Assembly: GCA_903833215.1 (NCBI GenBank)
Contig: CAILEM010000055.1
Coordinates: forward strand, 1 to 64,000
Length of the DNA: 64,000 bases
Direction: 5' to 3'
DNA from: an uncultured Armatimonadota bacterium
Lineage (GTDB): Bacteria > Armatimonadota > Fimbriimonadia > Fimbriimonadales > Fimbriimonadaceae
The translations under genes were made by a program, and so were the position numbers. The notes beneath the pieces were generated by a model. The model saw nothing but the letters and a program-made list of their open reading frames with translations, was not told the origin of the DNA and made no database searches. Shown here in pieces: positions 8,082 to 57,459 of this stretch (positions within the stretch are counted from its first letter, which is position 1; every line of letters begins with the position of its first letter).

Positions 8082-9188
8082 CTAGCGGCTCTTGCAGGCG
8101 TCAACTACCAGCCGAATAACATCAGGATCTTGGGCCGCACCGGTGTTTCGATTGAACAGACCGCCGGTATCCCAATACATTGGAATCACACCGTGAGCCA
8201 CGGCTGATTTCGTGACAAAGGCGTCCCACAGCTTTCGGTAGGGCTCCATGCCAGGAAAGTTCTTCTTCATCCCGCAGCAGTATTCGCCGAGTATGACGGG
8301 GACCCCTTGGTCCACGAATGTTGCCTTCAGCTTTTGAAACTCGCCGTCGGTATAGGCTTCATTCGCCCAAGTTTCGGTTGCTTTCGGGTCTGTTGCCGTC
8401 TTGCCCCACTGCCAGATGTTGCTCTTGTCGTTGAGCGTAAAGTTGTAGGGCGAATAGTAGTGGACCTCTAGCATCAGGCGACCTTTCACCGTGTCGGTCG
8501 GTAGCTTTGCGTTAAATTTCACCGAATTGTCGATGTCGGTGTTGTAGGCCTGAACAACCAGGAATCGGTTTGCGTTTCGGCCGCCCGTAGCGCGAACGGT
8601 TTTAACAAAGATTTGATTGAAACCGTTTTGGATCGACGCGTTCTCCTCGGCCGGCGGTGCGTACACACCCTCAACGCCGACTTCATTCGTGCCTGCAAAA
8701 AGCAGATGATCATCGAAATTACGGAAGTTGGTCGCGATCTGGGTCCAGAATTTGCGCAACTTTGAATTCGCTTGTCCCTGTTTGGCGACCGTAGGTTGTA
8801 GCCAACCGCCATCCCAATGGACGTTGATCATTACATAGAGCCCGAACTTGGTTGCTTTCTGTACCACCTCTGTCACGTGGGACATCCACTTGGCGCTAAT
8901 CTGGTTCTCACTGTCGGAATATTGAGTCCACGCGATGGGAATCCGAATGCTCCGGAATCCGGCCTTTTTGACCGCAGCCATGAATGCATCGGTGGTTGGT
9001 GGATTTCCCCAAGACGTTTCGGTGGGAATCGCCTCAAGGGTGTTTCCCAGGTTGATGCCGGGCGACATCAGCCGGATGGCGTTTGACTTGTCAAGAATCT
9101 CACCACCATTGGTTTGGCACACGCCACTGGAGGCAAGGGCCATTGCTGCCACCAGCACATTCAGTCTTCTCGCATTGATTTGTTTCAT
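8082..9188 (-). CDS. Secreted GH5 endoglucanase/cellulase-like enzyme
   Basis: The 368-residue protein has a signal peptide (about residues 1-24) and one GH5 TIM barrel. Visible landmarks are GINLGNTLEA, FRSIRIPIAW, MINVHWDGGW, the acid/base Glu169 in AGTNEVG, the HYYSP strand and the nucleophile Glu302 in VILGEYC. GH5 enzymes cleave beta-1,4-glucans or mannans; the subfamily cannot be fixed here. An SD (GGGAAGA) precedes the ATG. The gene lies 27 bases downstream of the GH42 gene on the same strand and is very likely co-transcribed with it. Confidence 0.92.
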   Translation of the reverse strand: MKQINARRLNVLVAAMALASSGVCQTNGGEILDKSNAIRLMSPGINLGNTLEAIPTETSWGNPPTTDAFMAAVKKAGFRSIRIPIAWTQYSDSENQISAKWMSHVTEVVQKATKFGLYVMINVHWDGGWLQPTVAKQGQANSKLRKFWTQIATNFRNFDDHLLFAGTNEVGVEGVYAPPAEENASIQNGFNQIFVKTVRATGGRNANRFLVVQAYNTDIDNSVKFNAKLPTDTVKGRLMLEVHYYSPYNFTLNDKSNIWQWGKTATDPKATETWANEAYTDGEFQKLKATFVDQGVPVILGEYCCGMKKNFPGMEPYRKLWDAFVTKSAVAHGVIPMYWDTGGLFNRNTGAAQDPDVIRLVVDACKSR

Positions 9189-9215
9189 GGTTATCTTCCC
9201 GTCACCCTCCCGTGG

Positions 9216-11372
9216 CTACTCTACTAAGTCGGCGCCCTTTGCCGGCAGGGTTATGATGCCTGTGAAAGTCTTGCCCGATAATAAGCCCTTCTTTGTCCCA
9301 TTGATCGGGAAGCTCACATCCCCGTAGTTCGTGTTGACGTAGAAAACTCTTCCGTCGACGACACGTGCGTAAACTCCATCGGGTGTCGATAATCCATCGG
9401 TGATCCCAGCCGCCTTCTTAACCACTTCCAGCACCGGCCCAATCGCGGAGACATTCGATTCTGTGGCCATGTAGAAAGCTTGGCCCTTTCCGAATTTGTT
9501 CACGGTCAGGATAGGGAACTTGTCTGGCAGGTAAGAGTTGGTGATCTCGCCGAGAACAATTGCTGTGCGTGGCTCGAGCAACTCATAGTAGGTTGCGGTG
9601 GAGTTTACGGTTTGTCCGTTGAGCGAGTAATGAACTCCACCATCGTTTCTGTAAAAAGCCGCCGTCCGTAAGCCAAATACGTCGCTGAGTCTGCCAGGAA
9701 GGGTTGTCTCAAACCATTGCGCGTGGTCATCGACCTTTGCGCTGTATCCAGTCATTAGCGCCGTCCCACCGTTCTCAACGTAGGTGCGAATGGCCTTGGC
9801 GCTTGCTTCATCCATCAGGTACAGGGCAGGGACGACCACCAGTTTGTACTTGCTAAGGTCTTCATGGGCGATATTAATCACCGCCGCGTCGATGTTCTTT
9901 TTGTAAAGAGGCTCAAATGCAGCTTGAACTTGATCGCCGTACCCCGTTTTGAAATATTGCTTGGTGGTGCTAGACGGTCCGTTTGGGGCCGACGAAGTCG
10001 CACTCTCGAAGGAGTAAGCGATGGCTACTTCCGGCTGGAAGTAGCGCGGGAAGCCGTACTTCGCCAACGTCTTGAAATCCGAGGCGATGTGGCCCCATTC
10101 ATTCACCTTCCACGAGGGAACTCCGTCATGATCAACCAAGCCGAACAAGGCTTGCTCTTCGCCACCGGCATGGCTGTTGAATGTCCACGCCATGACACCC
10201 TGGGCACCAACGAGGAGCGTCACGAAGGCAAGCATTCGGCTGCGACCAGGGTCGCCATACCAGCCACCACCGCCCGCCGTGAACTCGTTGAGCCAGACTG
10301 GATTCTGTAGCGCTCCCTTGGTAAGCATGATCTGGTAAGAACCATCGATCGCGCCGCCAGCGTAAAAGCCCATCGCTCCAAAAGAGACGTAATCCTTGTA
10401 GCTTGAGAGATAGTCAAATCCTCTGCGCCAAGCGTAATCCCATAGGTTGGACAGCGTCGGTGTCTGCGGCATGTACTTGCGACGCAAATGCTCCAAGTCC
10501 ATCAAGTTCTCGACCGTGATATCGGACCAAAATCGATGGAGATCAAGATATCGCTCGGCCGGACCGGGACCGTTCTTCAGAGGCAAGTCAACGTCCTCAA
10601 AATGGTTCAGCCTGCGGGACCATCGTTGGGTTGCCCACACTCGGTTCAGAGTTTCGATGGAGCCGTATCGCTTCCGCAGCCAATCGATAAAGCGACGTCG
10701 ATCTGCCTCGGAATAGGACATCATCCCATTCCCGACCTCATTGTTGTATCCAATCGCCACGATGGACGGGTGCTTCGCATAGCGCGCGAGCATTTTATCG
10801 GCGAGGCGCTTGATGCAGCGGCGATAGTCTGGATCACTGATGTTGTCCATGTACCGTTCGGCAGGAGGAACGCGATTTCCGTCCTGATTCACGATATCGA
10901 CGCCAGGGTGCATGCGATGCAACCATATCGGCGCGGGGCTGCCAGGAATATCGAGAACGACGCGGATGCCCGCATCATGCATCTGGTCGAGGATCTTGTC
11001 GAACCAGCTGAACTCGAATTTGCCGTCCGACGGTTCAAATGAGTCCCACGATAGGTCACCCATGCGAACCACGTTGAAGCCCGCTGACTTCATGATCGCA
11101 ATGTCGGCTTTGATCTGCTCAAGGCTCCGATCGATGGGCTGATAGCAGGTCCCTACAAATAGTTGGCCGGGCCCGGGACCAGGAATGCTCGACGCGGTTG
11201 GACCACCTTGGGGCAGAGAAGTCTTGCTTTGAACAGTTTTGTGGTTCATGGTTGTCGGATTGTCCAGTTTAGGCATAAACGGATCAGGAGCAACGTGCAA
11301 ATCCTGGGCTTCCGCGCACGCGCAAGAGACGACCGCAGCGCATACACCTGCGACCCTGAAGAACCTCATCAT
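9216..11372 (-). CDS. Secreted GH42 beta-galactosidase-like enzyme
   Basis: A multidomain GH42 enzyme, 718 residues from the preferred ATG 11372, which gives a good signal peptide (MRFFRVAGVCAAVVSC). The frame stays open to 11423. Domain A is a TIM barrel with FNVVRMGDLSWDSFEP, the acid/base Glu212 in GYNNEVG and the nucleophile Glu363 in VWLNEFTAGG. Next comes a trimerisation-like domain B (LYLMDEASAKAIRTYVENGG) and a C-terminal beta domain. GH42 enzymes remove terminal beta-galactosides. A CATACT hexamer eight bases before the ATG could be its -10 element. First gene of the GH42-GH5 operon, divergent from the AraC regulator. Confidence 0.92.
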   Translation of the reverse strand: MMRFFRVAGVCAAVVSCACAEAQDLHVAPDPFMPKLDNPTTMNHKTVQSKTSLPQGGPTASSIPGPGPGQLFVGTCYQPIDRSLEQIKADIAIMKSAGFNVVRMGDLSWDSFEPSDGKFEFSWFDKILDQMHDAGIRVVLDIPGSPAPIWLHRMHPGVDIVNQDGNRVPPAERYMDNISDPDYRRCIKRLADKMLARYAKHPSIVAIGYNNEVGNGMMSYSEADRRRFIDWLRKRYGSIETLNRVWATQRWSRRLNHFEDVDLPLKNGPGPAERYLDLHRFWSDITVENLMDLEHLRRKYMPQTPTLSNLWDYAWRRGFDYLSSYKDYVSFGAMGFYAGGAIDGSYQIMLTKGALQNPVWLNEFTAGGGGWYGDPGRSRMLAFVTLLVGAQGVMAWTFNSHAGGEEQALFGLVDHDGVPSWKVNEWGHIASDFKTLAKYGFPRYFQPEVAIAYSFESATSSAPNGPSSTTKQYFKTGYGDQVQAAFEPLYKKNIDAAVINIAHEDLSKYKLVVVPALYLMDEASAKAIRTYVENGGTALMTGYSAKVDDHAQWFETTLPGRLSDVFGLRTAAFYRNDGGVHYSLNGQTVNSTATYYELLEPRTAIVLGEITNSYLPDKFPILTVNKFGKGQAFYMATESNVSAIGPVLEVVKKAAGITDGLSTPDGVYARVVDGRVFYVNTNYGDVSFPINGTKKGLLSGKTFTGIITLPAKGADLVE

Positions 11373-11481
11373 ATGAGGGCAGTATGTCACCGCTCGAGTT
11401 GGCCAAGGCGAGGCTTGAACCATTGGCTACTCTCGATGCACGTTGATATATTTGGACTCACATGCTCATTTTAGAGAACTT

Positions 11482-40940: not shown

Positions 40941-41336
40941 TTACATGCAGTCGATTTCCAGACAATAAGCGGGTTGTGAGGCCAAACCTGCGGGCAGACT
41001 GACCGAGAGAGCCTCTGTGCTGCGGGTCCACTTGAGCTGACGAGATCCGTCCAGCAATTTGATGCTGCGTATATGGGCAATCTCGGGCGACGCGCCGATG
41101 CCTAGTGACTTCATGTCGCAGGGGCCACTGGGGGCACCGAAGAGGATTGCATATAGCTTTCCATGGTTCGTGGTGTAGCGAATCTCTTCGGGGGAGTAAT
41201 TGAGCTGTTCGCCAAACATCCCGGCTTTGACTTCTGTGGGCCCCTCGCCAAATGTCTTCCAGGGGCGCGAACCGTAGATGGCGGTGCCATTTCGGCGGAG
41301 CCACTTGCCGATGGTGCCAAGACTGTCCACAAGTTC
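40941..41336 (-). pseudogene. 3' part of GH29 gene after an in-frame stop
   Basis: In the same frame as the upstream GH29 gene, directly after a TAG codon at 41337-41339, the sequence continues ELVDSLGTIGKWLRRNGTA and IYGSRPWKTFGEGP. This is the end of the fucosidase catalytic domain and its C-terminal beta sandwich, ending YCLEIDCM. It has no start of its own except an internal GTG at 41330. Confidence 0.8.
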
Positions 41337-42497
41337 CTAATCGATTTCGCCGGTTGGATGGAGAGGCACGTTCAGCAGCAGGGTGCCGTTCTTGCTGACA
41401 ACATCCGCCAGCATGTGGATGACTTGGGTTGCCGTCTTGTACTTGATGCCCTTGTTGTAGAACCAATCCCCAAAACAGGTGTCCGTCTGATAGGGCCATT
41501 TCTCAATTCCTGTTGTTTGGCCCCGTTCCACATCGAGAACGCATGCGGTTCGATCGATGTCGGGAAGAACTTTCACGTTCATCACCGCCTTGGCTACACC
41601 GCCGTTCCACTTGGCGCTTTGGTTATAGTAGTGGGCAGCGATGTCGAGTCCGGTCTGGCGAAATGGGAGCGTTGACCAGTCGAAATAGATCAAGTCGGGC
41701 CGGTACCGGTCGACAACATCTTCCACCCGATCCTTAAAGTTGTTCACGAAGATGGGGTCGGCTTGGTCGTCGCTGAGGGATTCTGCGGGAGTTCGCGGGC
41801 GCAGATACAGTTGCCGTGGATCAAGACCTTCCCACCATTTGCCCTTGCCATCCGCCAGGGTCAAGTTGCCATCGTAGGGAACGCCTTTGAGTGGTCCAGT
41901 CGTGTCCGACTGAGACGCCGTCCACCACCACCGCCAAGCCCAGTTGTTGTGGATACTAACACCGAAATGTAAGCCTCGTTTGCGCGCCGCCTGAGCCCAC
42001 ATACTAAGAATGTTCTGTTTGGGGCCAACCTTGGTGGCGTTCCACGGCTGGAATTTCGAATCCCACAGGTCGAAATTATCGCAGTGGGCGCCCATCGAGA
42101 CGAAGTACTTGGCGCCAGCACGGACATAGAGGTCCATGAGCTTCTCGGGATCGAACTTTTCGGCTTTCCAGTCGTGAATCACTTCCTTGAAGCCGCTTTG
42201 AGAGGGATGCCCCCATCGCGCATCGTGGGCGGCTCGCTTTGCCTTGGCGAGATCGTGCTCCCAGGTGTCCAATTCGGGTCGGTCGCCATACATGTGCCGG
42301 GCATACCAATCGCCCATTTCCGGCACACTTTGGGGGCCCCAATGTGCCCAAATCCCGAATTTGGCATCGCGAAACCATTCCGGTGTTCGTGCCTGCCTTA
42401 ACGACTCCCAAGTGGGTTCGAAATGCTGCATTTTGTCCTTTGACGCACCTGAAGCTTGGACTGAAACGATCGCAACCAATACTTGGATGGCCAACAT
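41337..42497 (-). CDS. Secreted GH29 alpha-L-fucosidase, truncated by in-frame TAG
   Basis: The 386-residue reading has a signal peptide (about 1-19) and most of the GH29 barrel: EWFRDAKFGIWAHWGPQSVPE, GAKYFVSMGAHCDNFDLWDS, the nucleophile Asp in RPDLIYFDWSTLPF, and LLLNVPLHPTGEID. It should continue ELVDSLGTIGKWL, but an in-frame TAG stops it. The frame is otherwise intact on both sides, so this is a single-codon lesion or a readthrough site. GH29 enzymes remove alpha-L-fucose. TAGACT eight bases before the ATG is a -10 candidate. Confidence 0.85.
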   Translation of the reverse strand: MLAIQVLVAIVSVQASGASKDKMQHFEPTWESLRQARTPEWFRDAKFGIWAHWGPQSVPEMGDWYARHMYGDRPELDTWEHDLAKAKRAAHDARWGHPSQSGFKEVIHDWKAEKFDPEKLMDLYVRAGAKYFVSMGAHCDNFDLWDSKFQPWNATKVGPKQNILSMWAQAARKRGLHFGVSIHNNWAWRWWWTASQSDTTGPLKGVPYDGNLTLADGKGKWWEGLDPRQLYLRPRTPAESLSDDQADPIFVNNFKDRVEDVVDRYRPDLIYFDWSTLPFRQTGLDIAAHYYNQSAKWNGGVAKAVMNVKVLPDIDRTACVLDVERGQTTGIEKWPYQTDTCFGDWFYNKGIKYKTATQVIHMLADVVSKNGTLLLNVPLHPTGEID

Positions 42498-53996: not shown

Positions 53997-54803
53997 TCCT
54001 GCAGCGCTGGTGACGGTGAGATTCCATTGGCTGGAGGCAACATGAGTGCGGTCGTGAAGTCTGGGAGCACCGTGAAGCGCACCGCAACCGCGGGATCACG
54101 CACGATTCAGCAGTTCCTATCCCACCTCCGGGGAGCGGGTGTTGATTGGGTTCCTGAGCCGTTGGGGTTTGACGACTCTGGACGTGAGATTCTTAGCTTT
54201 GTCGAGGGGCAAGCAATTGATGGGGTCCCGCCAGAGTGGTTTTGGGATGAGGGTGTGCTGGTTGATATTGCCAAGCGACTGCGGCAACTCCACGACGCCT
54301 CAATATCGTTTGATGGTACTTCGGCGGTCTGGAATTGGGAGTCTGCCTCTCCGGCAGAGGTGATTCTGCATCGGGACTTTGCACCCTACAACTGCATCTT
54401 TAGAAAACAGCGCTTTATCGGGCTCATCGACTTTGATCTCAGCGCACCGGGTCCCCGAATCTGGGATATCGCCTACACTGCGTATCGCTTCGTGCCTCTC
54501 ATGCCTATCGGGCCCCTCGGTCACGCACAGTCGTGGTCAGTTTCGCCCTTCAACACAGAAATCATGATCAAGCGCTTAGATGCATTCCTTGTCGCCTACG
54601 GTTTAGGCGCTCAGCGACTGGAATACTCGACCGCGGACGTCCTGGCAATGACAATCAAACGTTTGGACGCGATGATCGAGTGGATCAAAATGCGGCTGCA
54701 AACTCACCCAAACCCTGGACTCGCAGAAAACGCGGAGACCTACGCGGAGCATCGCGCTTGGCTATCAGGAATTTGTCCGGTGGAGCGAGCTAAGGATGCT
54801 TGA
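53994..54803 (+). CDS. Phosphotransferase (APH-like)
   Basis: About 269 residues from ATG 53994; the frame is open to 53841. It shows the APH-fold core: AVVKSGSTVKR, VILHRDFAPYNCIFR (HxDxxxxN) and LIDFDLSAPGPRIWDIAY (metal Asp). A small-molecule kinase; the substrate is unknown. Its stop overlaps the end of the convergent DUF4434-type gene by 14 bases. Confidence 0.85.
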   Translation: MSCSAGDGEIPLAGGNMSAVVKSGSTVKRTATAGSRTIQQFLSHLRGAGVDWVPEPLGFDDSGREILSFVEGQAIDGVPPEWFWDEGVLVDIAKRLRQLHDASISFDGTSAVWNWESASPAEVILHRDFAPYNCIFRKQRFIGLIDFDLSAPGPRIWDIAYTAYRFVPLMPIGPLGHAQSWSVSPFNTEIMIKRLDAFLVAYGLGAQRLEYSTADVLAMTIKRLDAMIEWIKMRLQTHPNPGLAENAETYAEHRAWLSGICPVERAKDA

Positions 54804-57459
54804 TCGTTAGGACTGCCGAGGCGTACACGTAATCGGCTCCAGCAGTGATCGTCGCCGTTGTATTCGTCGTAACCGCCTTCGTCGCGATCGTAAACGTGGC
54901 AGTCTTGCCGCCAGCAGGGACCGTGACTGTCGTCGAGACGATTGCCGATCCACTACTTGATGTTAGGGTGACAACCTCGCCGCTGGGGCCCGCCAGTCCG
55001 TTCAAGGTGACGGTTCCGGTGGAGGAGGTTCCGCCGACTACGGAACTCGGGGAAAGGGATACGCTTGCCACGCCAGCAGGCACGACGCCAACGTAAATTG
55101 TTTGGCTACTACTACCGATCGCGGCGGTGATGGCCACCGTTGTGAAGCCGTTAACGCCAGAGGTTGCTACCGCAAAGGTTGCCTTGGTGGCCCCGGATGC
55201 GACGGTTACGGTTGAAGGAACACTTGCGCAGGCAAGATTCGATGAGAGATTGACCACGACTCCGCCTGGTCCGGCGGCGGTGCTCAGGGTCACTGTGCCG
55301 GTCGCAATGGAACCACCGTAGATCGGCGAAGGGGAAACGGAAACGCTCGAAACGGTGTCGGCATTGATCATCAAGATGACGGATTGAGAAGTACCGCCGA
55401 CGGATCCCGTGATCGTCGCCGTTGTGACAGCGCTGACACCAGTGGTGGCGATGCTGAAGGTTGTTGTCTTCGAACCGGACGCTACCGTAACGGTGGCTGG
55501 CACGGTGGCGTACGGGCTATTCGACGAAAGGGAGACGCTAAGCCCGCCCGAGGGCGCTGGCGAACTCAGGGTGATCGTTCCCGTCGAAGTTGCGCCAGCA
55601 GAGACTGTGGCTGGGCTCAAAGAGAGTCGTGCCGTGCCGGCGAGATGGGCGAACTTGGTGACCGAAGATACATTCCCGTAGACGTCGAATGCGGCGACAT
55701 AGTAAGTGTGGGTGAGGGCGTAGGAATTGGGATCCGGGTCGAGGAAAGCGGTCGTGGAACCTGCCGAAATCGGGATCTCGCTGCATACGTACGGTGTCGT
55801 TCCCGCTGTATAGCTGTCTCGCCAAACGTAGAATCCGCAGACTCCATTAGGACTCGACGCAACTGCCAGCGTAAGGCGACAATGTCCGCTCGAACTGGCA
55901 GGCCCGCTAACTGTTGGCGCACTCGGGGCACCGGAATTTCCTAGCGAGCGATTCGTCTGCCAAGAACCCCATGCATTGCTCCAGGCGGCATTGGCCCAGA
56001 CGGCTACAGGATCGTAGTAGTAGGCGTTCGAGCAGTTCATGATCCCGCTTAGTCGGAAGCTACCCGCGTAATTCACGGTCGCTTCTGCTTGAAACTGCGC
56101 GGCGACCCGGCTAATTCCTGCATTGACGAAAGCACCGTCGATCCATGGGTAGGTTGAATGGGCCGGGTCATTCTCGACATAAACCGCTGGCGACCCATAG
56201 ACTTCAACGTCAACCTGATAGGTATCAGCGTTGGCCCAAACTTGCATGCCTGCGACATTTGACGCGGCCTGCAGCAGGGGTGGGTACCAGGTTTTGATCA
56301 CGGAGACGATCGCAGCGACGGTTGGTGGACCCTGAAGGGAACTGCTTCCGGCTAGCTGCGGCTGATAGTCGCCGGCGCCGTCTTGAGGAGCAAAGATATC
56401 CGTGCCCGTAAAGATCGGCGAACCTGCGTACGTCGTGGAGAATATCTGCTGCCAAAGGGTTCCGTATTCCGATGCCGTGTAGGCCGAATAGGGGAGTTGA
56501 TTCGCCGTGTTCTGATAGTACGGATTGAAGAACGGCGACATCAAGCGAGGCTTTCCCGACAATGGGACGTAGCTCGTCACGAGCATCGATATAAGGTTGT
56601 TGTAAGCGGCCGTTGCGTAGCCTGTGGGTAGGAAGGAGCTTTCGTCGTCACCGATGTTCTTATCGAAATAGACGTTGTCGACTTCCCACGGCCAATACCA
56701 ACCGGCGAAGCTCGAGTAGCTGCCAAGCTGGTTGCCGAGATCCGAGGCGACAAGCGCGCCCAAGCGGGCTTCACTTGCGCAGAATTGGGGGTCTGTGATG
56801 GGATCGGTAAGGCCAGAACCGTAGGCATTGCCCGACCGGAACCCCCATTCGTCAGCGTAGAAGTTGAGTCCGACGTAAACCGTCATCGTGTTGTTCACGC
56901 CGTTGTGCTGGGCGTAGTAGAGGCACTGTTCGACGGGCGACCTTGAAGCGCCGATTGCATTTCCGGGATAGGCGACGTTGGGATAGGCGGCAGTAACGGT
57001 GCTCGAAACTGGATACCAAGCCGTTGCCGTACTCGCTGGATAGGCGTTTGACGTTCCAAGAGTTTGCCCAGGTCCCTCTGTTTCGTCTACGGACGAAGCG
57101 AATACGACGCTCTTGATCCCTTGGCTTGCAAGTCCCCGAAACAAGGATTGCCACTGTGCATCCGTATAGCTTTGAACGGTCCAGCCCTGCAAAAGCGTCG
57201 CCGTCGAAACGGGGGGAATGGAGTTTCCCGAAGCCAGGGTATGACCTACCGCACCGTTGTTGCCTCCCTTCGCCACACGACCATCACGCAACGTTCCTGG
57301 CCAGTGGCGGACATGCTGATTCGCTCCCGGAAGGAAGGGAACCGCTCGTTGTTTGTGAGCTAGCCGCGGCGTCCCTTGGATGGCTACTGAGTCGGCAACG
57401 CCGCTCGCCGAAGAGAGAATTGAAGAGCCGAGAAGGAGAGAAGACAGGAGCGTTAGCAT
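54790..57459 (-). CDS. Secreted DUF4434-like TIM-barrel protein with Ig-like repeats
   Basis: An 889-residue exported protein. Signal peptide (about 1-22), then a long domain (about 75-490) with FRGLASQGIKSVVFASSVDE, VGLNFYADEWGF, GWYWPWEVDNVYFD and GTDIFAPQDG, which resembles the DUF4434 barrel. A fibronectin-like segment (about 500-605) follows. Three Ig-like repeats of about 94 residues end the protein (about 609-702, 703-796 and 797-889), each with VTV-A-G-x-x-T-x-T-F and TATIT. Probably a surface glycan-binding or glycan-cleaving protein. ATG 57459. Confidence 0.75.
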   Translation of the reverse strand: MLTLLSSLLLGSSILSSASGVADSVAIQGTPRLAHKQRAVPFLPGANQHVRHWPGTLRDGRVAKGGNNGAVGHTLASGNSIPPVSTATLLQGWTVQSYTDAQWQSLFRGLASQGIKSVVFASSVDETEGPGQTLGTSNAYPASTATAWYPVSSTVTAAYPNVAYPGNAIGASRSPVEQCLYYAQHNGVNNTMTVYVGLNFYADEWGFRSGNAYGSGLTDPITDPQFCASEARLGALVASDLGNQLGSYSSFAGWYWPWEVDNVYFDKNIGDDESSFLPTGYATAAYNNLISMLVTSYVPLSGKPRLMSPFFNPYYQNTANQLPYSAYTASEYGTLWQQIFSTTYAGSPIFTGTDIFAPQDGAGDYQPQLAGSSSLQGPPTVAAIVSVIKTWYPPLLQAASNVAGMQVWANADTYQVDVEVYGSPAVYVENDPAHSTYPWIDGAFVNAGISRVAAQFQAEATVNYAGSFRLSGIMNCSNAYYYDPVAVWANAAWSNAWGSWQTNRSLGNSGAPSAPTVSGPASSSGHCRLTLAVASSPNGVCGFYVWRDSYTAGTTPYVCSEIPISAGSTTAFLDPDPNSYALTHTYYVAAFDVYGNVSSVTKFAHLAGTARLSLSPATVSAGATSTGTITLSSPAPSGGLSVSLSSNSPYATVPATVTVASGSKTTTFSIATTGVSAVTTATITGSVGGTSQSVILMINADTVSSVSVSPSPIYGGSIATGTVTLSTAAGPGGVVVNLSSNLACASVPSTVTVASGATKATFAVATSGVNGFTTVAITAAIGSSSQTIYVGVVPAGVASVSLSPSSVVGGTSSTGTVTLNGLAGPSGEVVTLTSSSGSAIVSTTVTVPAGGKTATFTIATKAVTTNTTATITAGADYVYASAVLTIKHP
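54793..55635 (-). repeat. Three tandem Ig-like coding repeats
   Basis: These are the three C-terminal repeats of the DUF4434-like gene, each about 280 bases. A fourth partial copy lies outside the gene at 52905-52972. Confidence 0.8.

Follow-up and report, generated by a model that had tools for sequence, protein, structure and literature searches.

A single in-frame TAG interrupts an otherwise continuous GH29 alpha-L-fucosidase gene in an uncultured Armatimonadota bacterium

On the minus strand of the window (the whole 64,000-nucleotide stretch of DNA analysed here, part of contig 55 of a 6.22-Mb draft genome in 168 contigs with a completeness of 99.97% and a contamination of 1.82%), a GH29 alpha-L-fucosidase gene is broken at codon 387 by one in-frame TAG. 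The interruption is probably a recent nonsense substitution, with translation ending where the last helix of the catalytic barrel begins (Table 1). Minus-strand translation of 40941-42497 yields 386 residues up to the TAG and a further 131 from there to a terminal TAA, with the peptide around the stop reading ...LHPTGEID-stop-ELVDSLGTIGKWL.... An earlier, sequence-only reading of this DNA had given the flanking peptide as HPTGEID-stop-ELVDSLGTIGKWL and had described a frame that is continuous on both sides of the TAG and needs no indel to join its halves; the translation bears out all three points, and domain matches and codon usage confirm that the frame is continuous. Pfam Alpha_L_fucos covers residues 18-386 (PF01120; positions 6-326 of the 345 in the profile, E 5.8e-75), and the score of 253.3 bits against a cut-off of 25.2 places the protein in GH29, while the 131 codons after the TAG are matched by Fucosidase_C (PF16757; E 7.1e-7). 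Because PF01120 precedes the stop and Fucosidase_C follows it, the halves belong to one gene. Furthermore, intact relatives align with the read-through protein over its length (43-50% identity), codon usage scores best in the coding frame (0.199 per codon before the TAG and 0.114 after it, with 0.074 and 0.042 in the best other frame), and GC3 is almost equal across the stop (0.661 before, 0.659 after). That both halves are one gene with one stop is well beyond chance. A frameshift was rejected as the cause of the interruption because the halves share one frame; a single frame runs throughout, and the downstream part does not lie in the -1 frame that a -1 programmed frameshift would demand.

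Table 1. Positions in the window of the interrupted GH29 gene and of features within it
Feature	Position	Strand	Description	Basis
GH29 alpha-L-fucosidase gene	40941..42497	-	ATG at 42497; 518 codons if read through; one in-frame TAG; TAA end 40941-40943	
In-frame TAG, codon 387	41337..41339	-	plus-strand letters cta	
386 codons before TAG	41340..42497	-	N-terminal stretch and catalytic barrel to eighth strand (residues 371-376)	PF01120, AlphaFold2 model
131 codons after TAG	40944..41336	-	last barrel helix (387-406) and C-terminal beta-sandwich; same frame, no further stops	PF16757, model
GTG codon 390	41328..41330	-	AGGA four bases before; possible reinitiation start, unproven	
Codon 139, TGC (Cys)	42081..42083	-	second His of HHD in relatives	sequence and alignment

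The read-through protein was modelled with AlphaFold2 (mean pLDDT 89.0, pTM 0.90). In this model, residue 387 opens helix 387-406, which comes after barrel strand eight (371-376) and before the beta-sandwich; residues ~1-20 are modelled at low confidence and look signal-peptide-like by eye. Because the stop hits the first residue of this helix, past strand 371-376, the barrel is cut, and the product read by the standard code has no complete barrel in the model. A fragment ending at residue 386 would be without the last barrel helix and the whole beta-sandwich. AlfC, a GH29 enzyme, has no C-terminal domain (PMC10154630). Here the last helix of the barrel would be lost besides that domain, a loss that, to judge from the model, makes activity of the fragment unlikely. 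By sequence and by fold, the closest solved structures are the GH29 enzymes of Bacteroides plebeius (BpGH29 and related; PDB 7ljj, 7lk7, 7lnp, 7snk), with sequence matches at E 7.8e-70 for 7snk and E 9.7e-70 for 7ljj, and structural matches to 7lnp, 7lk7, 7ljj, and 7snk at TM 0.78-0.81 by query length and 30-31% identity.

The residues expected in a GH29 active site are present before the stop, as predicted by position: an Asp, D273, lies after the fourth barrel strand (269-272) and a candidate acid/base, E324, after the sixth (320-322), and neither varies among the 80 relatives compared (the best 80 of 579 confirmed loci). By position, and from the accessible text of PMC10154630, which describes the GH29 acid/base as differing between subfamilies, D273 is the putative nucleophile and E324 the putative acid/base. 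The HHD motif, in contrast, reads HCD in the focal protein. Its second His is present in all 16 other sequences of alignment A1 and in 79 of the 80 named loci (best 80 of 579; the lone exception, L117, has Glu), and it is kept in the Bacteroides plebeius enzymes, whereas the focal protein has Cys there; residue 336 is Tyr, with Trp in 16 of the 16 other A1 sequences. We take the HHD motif to be part of the GH29 sugar pocket, with the second His presumably contacting the sugar in GH29 structures. Cys139 and Tyr336 together hint that the pocket was changed, or the enzyme weakened, before the stop arose, and Cys139 may mark either an altered specificity or an earlier loss of function.

A search of public genomes with the single focal protein gave 0 confirmed loci, and a search with alignment A1 gave 579, of which the best 80 were kept. 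All 80 entered the residue counts, and 37 of them, selected by hand to be diverse, were used for alignment A2 and for the structure model. At the TAG site a sense codon stands in each of the 80 named loci (best 80 of 579), encoding E in 36, D in 14, S in 10, A in 8, P in 6, T in 3, and N, R, and F in one each, and none of these 80 has a stop within its best aligned stretch. A sense codon likewise fills all 32 aligned places in 31 further loci, 2 in the focal genome and 29 in genomes of the genus, family, or phylum, which are a subset of the matches in those genomes. Among the matches listed from the 101 genomes searched, the sole other one with an internal stop carries one TGA (genome G093). 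The residue in orthologues, which the sequence-only reading had proposed to look up, is therefore a varied set of sense codons in the relatives examined. Judging from these alignments, the position is one that tolerates many residues, with no sign of a conserved stop (0 of the best 80 of 579 and 0 of 32, none of them a close orthologue), and the variation in the residue at codon 387 shows that no conserved recoding site is involved. The 19 other genomes of the genus yielded no close orthologue (best match 49% identical), and neither dN/dS nor a sister species can therefore bound the age of the lesion.

The state of the sequence downstream of the stop bears on the age of the lesion in another way. 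The ratio of identity in the C-part to that in the N-part is 0.688, and 16 relatives range from 0.600 to 0.815. In a fixed 54-sequence tree, made up of the focal protein, 16 sequences of A1, and the 37 hand-chosen named relatives, the C/N ratio of the focal terminal branch is 2.15 (rank 17 of 54, median 1.75). An excess of decay after the stop was rejected, as both the identity and the branch ratios fall within the spread of the relatives. The focal terminal branch is nonetheless the longest of the 54 (0.783 vs a median of 0.335), and it is the longest in both parts (N 0.56, C 1.21); its length may reflect faster evolution or merely missing close relatives, and would also be expected of a gene that was decaying already before the stop. 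At columns conserved in at least 95%, the focal protein has three deviations upstream of the TAG (rank 9 of 54) and one downstream, which is not unusual. Under neutral drift, the probability that 131 codons remain without a new stop or frameshift is 0.44, 0.13, and 0.016 at 0.02, 0.05, and 0.1 substitutions per site, respectively, and for stops alone it is 0.22 at 0.1 substitutions per site, the frameshift share of these figures resting on an assumed indel rate. Since erosion downstream of the TAG does not exceed that in relatives, the TAG is a young lesion, an error, or a stop that is bypassed. A single lesion with no excess of downstream erosion is the pattern of a young nonsense pseudogene or null allele.

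If the gene was indeed struck by a recent nonsense mutation, a single substitution would have created the TAG at codon 387, and translation would stop short of the barrel's last helix, such that at most a 386-residue fragment would be made, presumably inactive or unstable. The gene would then be either a pseudogene of recent origin or a polymorphic null allele, the loss of which would be bearable because the genome holds many other GH29 genes. The sequence-only reading had instead credited tolerance of the loss to an intact GH29 gene at 47.3 kb, a suggestion that found no support: the best aligned segment between the two proteins covers 61 residues at 31% identity, and the 47.3-kb protein differs in architecture and carries F5/8 type C domains. 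By this comparison the 47.3-kb gene appears too remote to be an obvious backup. A closer paralogue lies at C129:91896-93284 (42% identity over 492 columns), and 16 other GH29 matches in the genome, among them the gene at 47.3 kb, exceed the Pfam cut-off. If the loss is tolerable, its ground would thus be these many other GH29 genes rather than the 47.3-kb neighbour, with a shared substrate being hypothetical. Counting the interrupted gene, 17 PF01120 matches lie above the cut-off in the genome, two of them sharing a 1084-codon frame on contig 50. The window also encodes, in the neighbourhood of its GH29 pair, an 889-aa protein with a DUF4434 domain (54790-57459, minus strand).

Besides the want of a close orthologue, two considerations weigh against a nonsense substitution. 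An intact downstream part is equally expected under readthrough with continuing selection, and a base-calling or assembly error would give the same picture as a true stop. The latter explanation, that sequencing, assembly, or binning introduced the TAG and that the organism has a sense codon and an intact gene, is the less likely account but one to be taken seriously. It would fit a TAG that is the gene's sole lesion over 518 codons and is followed by no excess decay, relatives that are intact at codon 387 wherever examined, and the fragmentation and contamination of the draft (168 contigs, 1.82%). The assembly, however, is not visibly error-ridden, although one error is possible: internal stops are found in 0 of 75 ABC transporter, 0 of 19 MFS, and 0 of 17 other GH29 domain matches in the genome (111 in total). 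This count also answers a check for other interrupted genes suggested by the sequence-only reading, none being found in the three domain families searched genome-wide. That reading had left a young nonsense mutation, a sequencing error, and readthrough side by side; the first is favoured here, the second is left standing, and the third found no positive support.

Readthrough of the TAG at some level, leaky or regulated, with small amounts of full-length enzyme as the outcome, is improbable, even though the downstream part is preserved as well as in relatives. The RF1 gene is intact (356 aa); a TGA that had been reported inside prfA as a second in-frame stop was rejected, as it is merely the codon preceding the ATG. 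TAG is a common ORF end in the window, closing 14 of 30 long ORFs (TGA 10, TAA 6) that were hand-picked from the ORF list and are not all proven genes. For instance, TAG 9216-9218 lies between GH42 and GH5 genes that are both complete and share a frame, a control showing that TAG ends genes here. This GH42 and GH5 tandem (8082-11423, minus strand), with its TAG and a short gap, is easily misread as an interrupted gene, and as a candidate for another such gene it was rejected because each of its members is complete; five further same-frame ORF pairs in the window look, on the ORF list alone, like shadows of opposite-strand genes. The amber suppressor tRNA that the sequence-only reading had wished to see checked was not found: no CUA anticodon is present among the 47 tRNA matches of the genome (ARAGORN, all 47 loci; 259 candidates, 150 scored, 47 matched). 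The missing CUA tRNA is strong but not absolute evidence, and a draft genome could miss a tRNA gene. Similarly, no PylS above the cut-off is present in the genome, where one partial match reaches 20.8 bits vs 178.15; in a control search, matches were obtained in 13 of 14 genomes and exceeded the cut-off in one. Genome-wide recoding of TAG was rejected on these grounds, namely an intact RF1, the many ORFs ending in TAG, the failure to find a CUA tRNA, and PylS below the cut-off, and neither of the two hallmarks of a reassigned TAG, a CUA tRNA with PylS (as for pyrrolysine) or loss of RF1, was seen in the 168-contig draft. A stimulating RNA structure after the stop was not found either: over 126 bases (the codon before the TAG, the TAG, and 120 bases after it) the fold has z = +0.89, with 166 of 200 shuffles folding at least as well, which is not unusually stable. 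Furthermore, no relative examined has a stop at this place, and a readthrough signal is therefore not conserved. On contig 97 of the same genome, an RF2-like prfB (L087) has a short first frame that ends in TGA and is followed by the main frame, a layout resembling the well-known RF2 autoregulatory frameshift.

Belinky et al. 2021 (PMC7918605) describe in-frame stops as widespread in bacterial genes and mostly short-lived, on the scale of polymorphism, with a mean dN/dS below 1, and the report of such values for many bacterial genes is a point in favour of readthrough. The same text names carbohydrate metabolism as the next most frequent category after mobile elements, notes no major category trend save for mobile elements, warns of artefacts, and gives as an example of its own a TAG common to several Paenibacillus genes. 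The present case is like these in having a single in-frame TAG in a gene that is otherwise conserved. It is unlike them in that the stop is found in one genome only, with no close orthologue carrying or lacking the TAG, and for this reason persistence of the TAG, or selection on it, is not measurable.

The archaeal fucA1 gene of Saccharolobus solfataricus encodes a GH29 enzyme, and like the gene described here it is an interrupted alpha-L-fucosidase gene. Saccharolobus (Sulfolobus) solfataricus fucA1 is expressed by -1 programmed frameshifting, and a review that deals with it knows of no fucosidase gene regulated in this way in Bacteria or Eukarya (PMC8211752); in the texts consulted, fucA1 is the only recoded fucosidase. 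The parts of fucA1 lie in different frames and are joined at a slippery heptamer, whereas both parts of the focal gene lie in one frame, and a single frameshift would therefore not rejoin them. Readthrough of nonsense variants of human FUCA1 is the topic of PMC12817336, to go by its listing, and no bacterial read-through fucosidase was described in the titles and beginnings of abstracts surveyed, a survey that mostly left subscription journals outside its range. It is a long shot that the TAG is a leaky switch in a bacterial counterpart of fucA1, a GH29 enzyme with an altered pocket (Cys139) that would be made at full length only via low-level UAG readthrough. If this were true, with the TAG confirmed in reads and the full-length protein found, the gene would be a bacterial case of fucosidase recoding.

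Least credible of all is a split gene in which translation stops at the TAG and restarts at GTG codon 390, the second polypeptide (helix and beta-sandwich) joining the first: the AGGA ahead of the GTG would suit such a restart, but the cut falls, in the model, within the barrel before its last helix, the second piece has by eye no N-terminal export-like segment, no relative examined has a stop at codon 387, and Shine-Dalgarno-like cores precede just 5 of 16 window genes (hand-picked from the ORF list, not all of them proven genes), such that the motif is weak evidence either way.

Taken as a recent nonsense substitution, the TAG at codon 387 would be an ordinary event, one more young in-frame stop in a redundant family of carbohydrate-degrading enzymes. 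It also carries a warning for the reading of such genomes, as automatic annotation may call two genes at this locus, or one truncated GH29.
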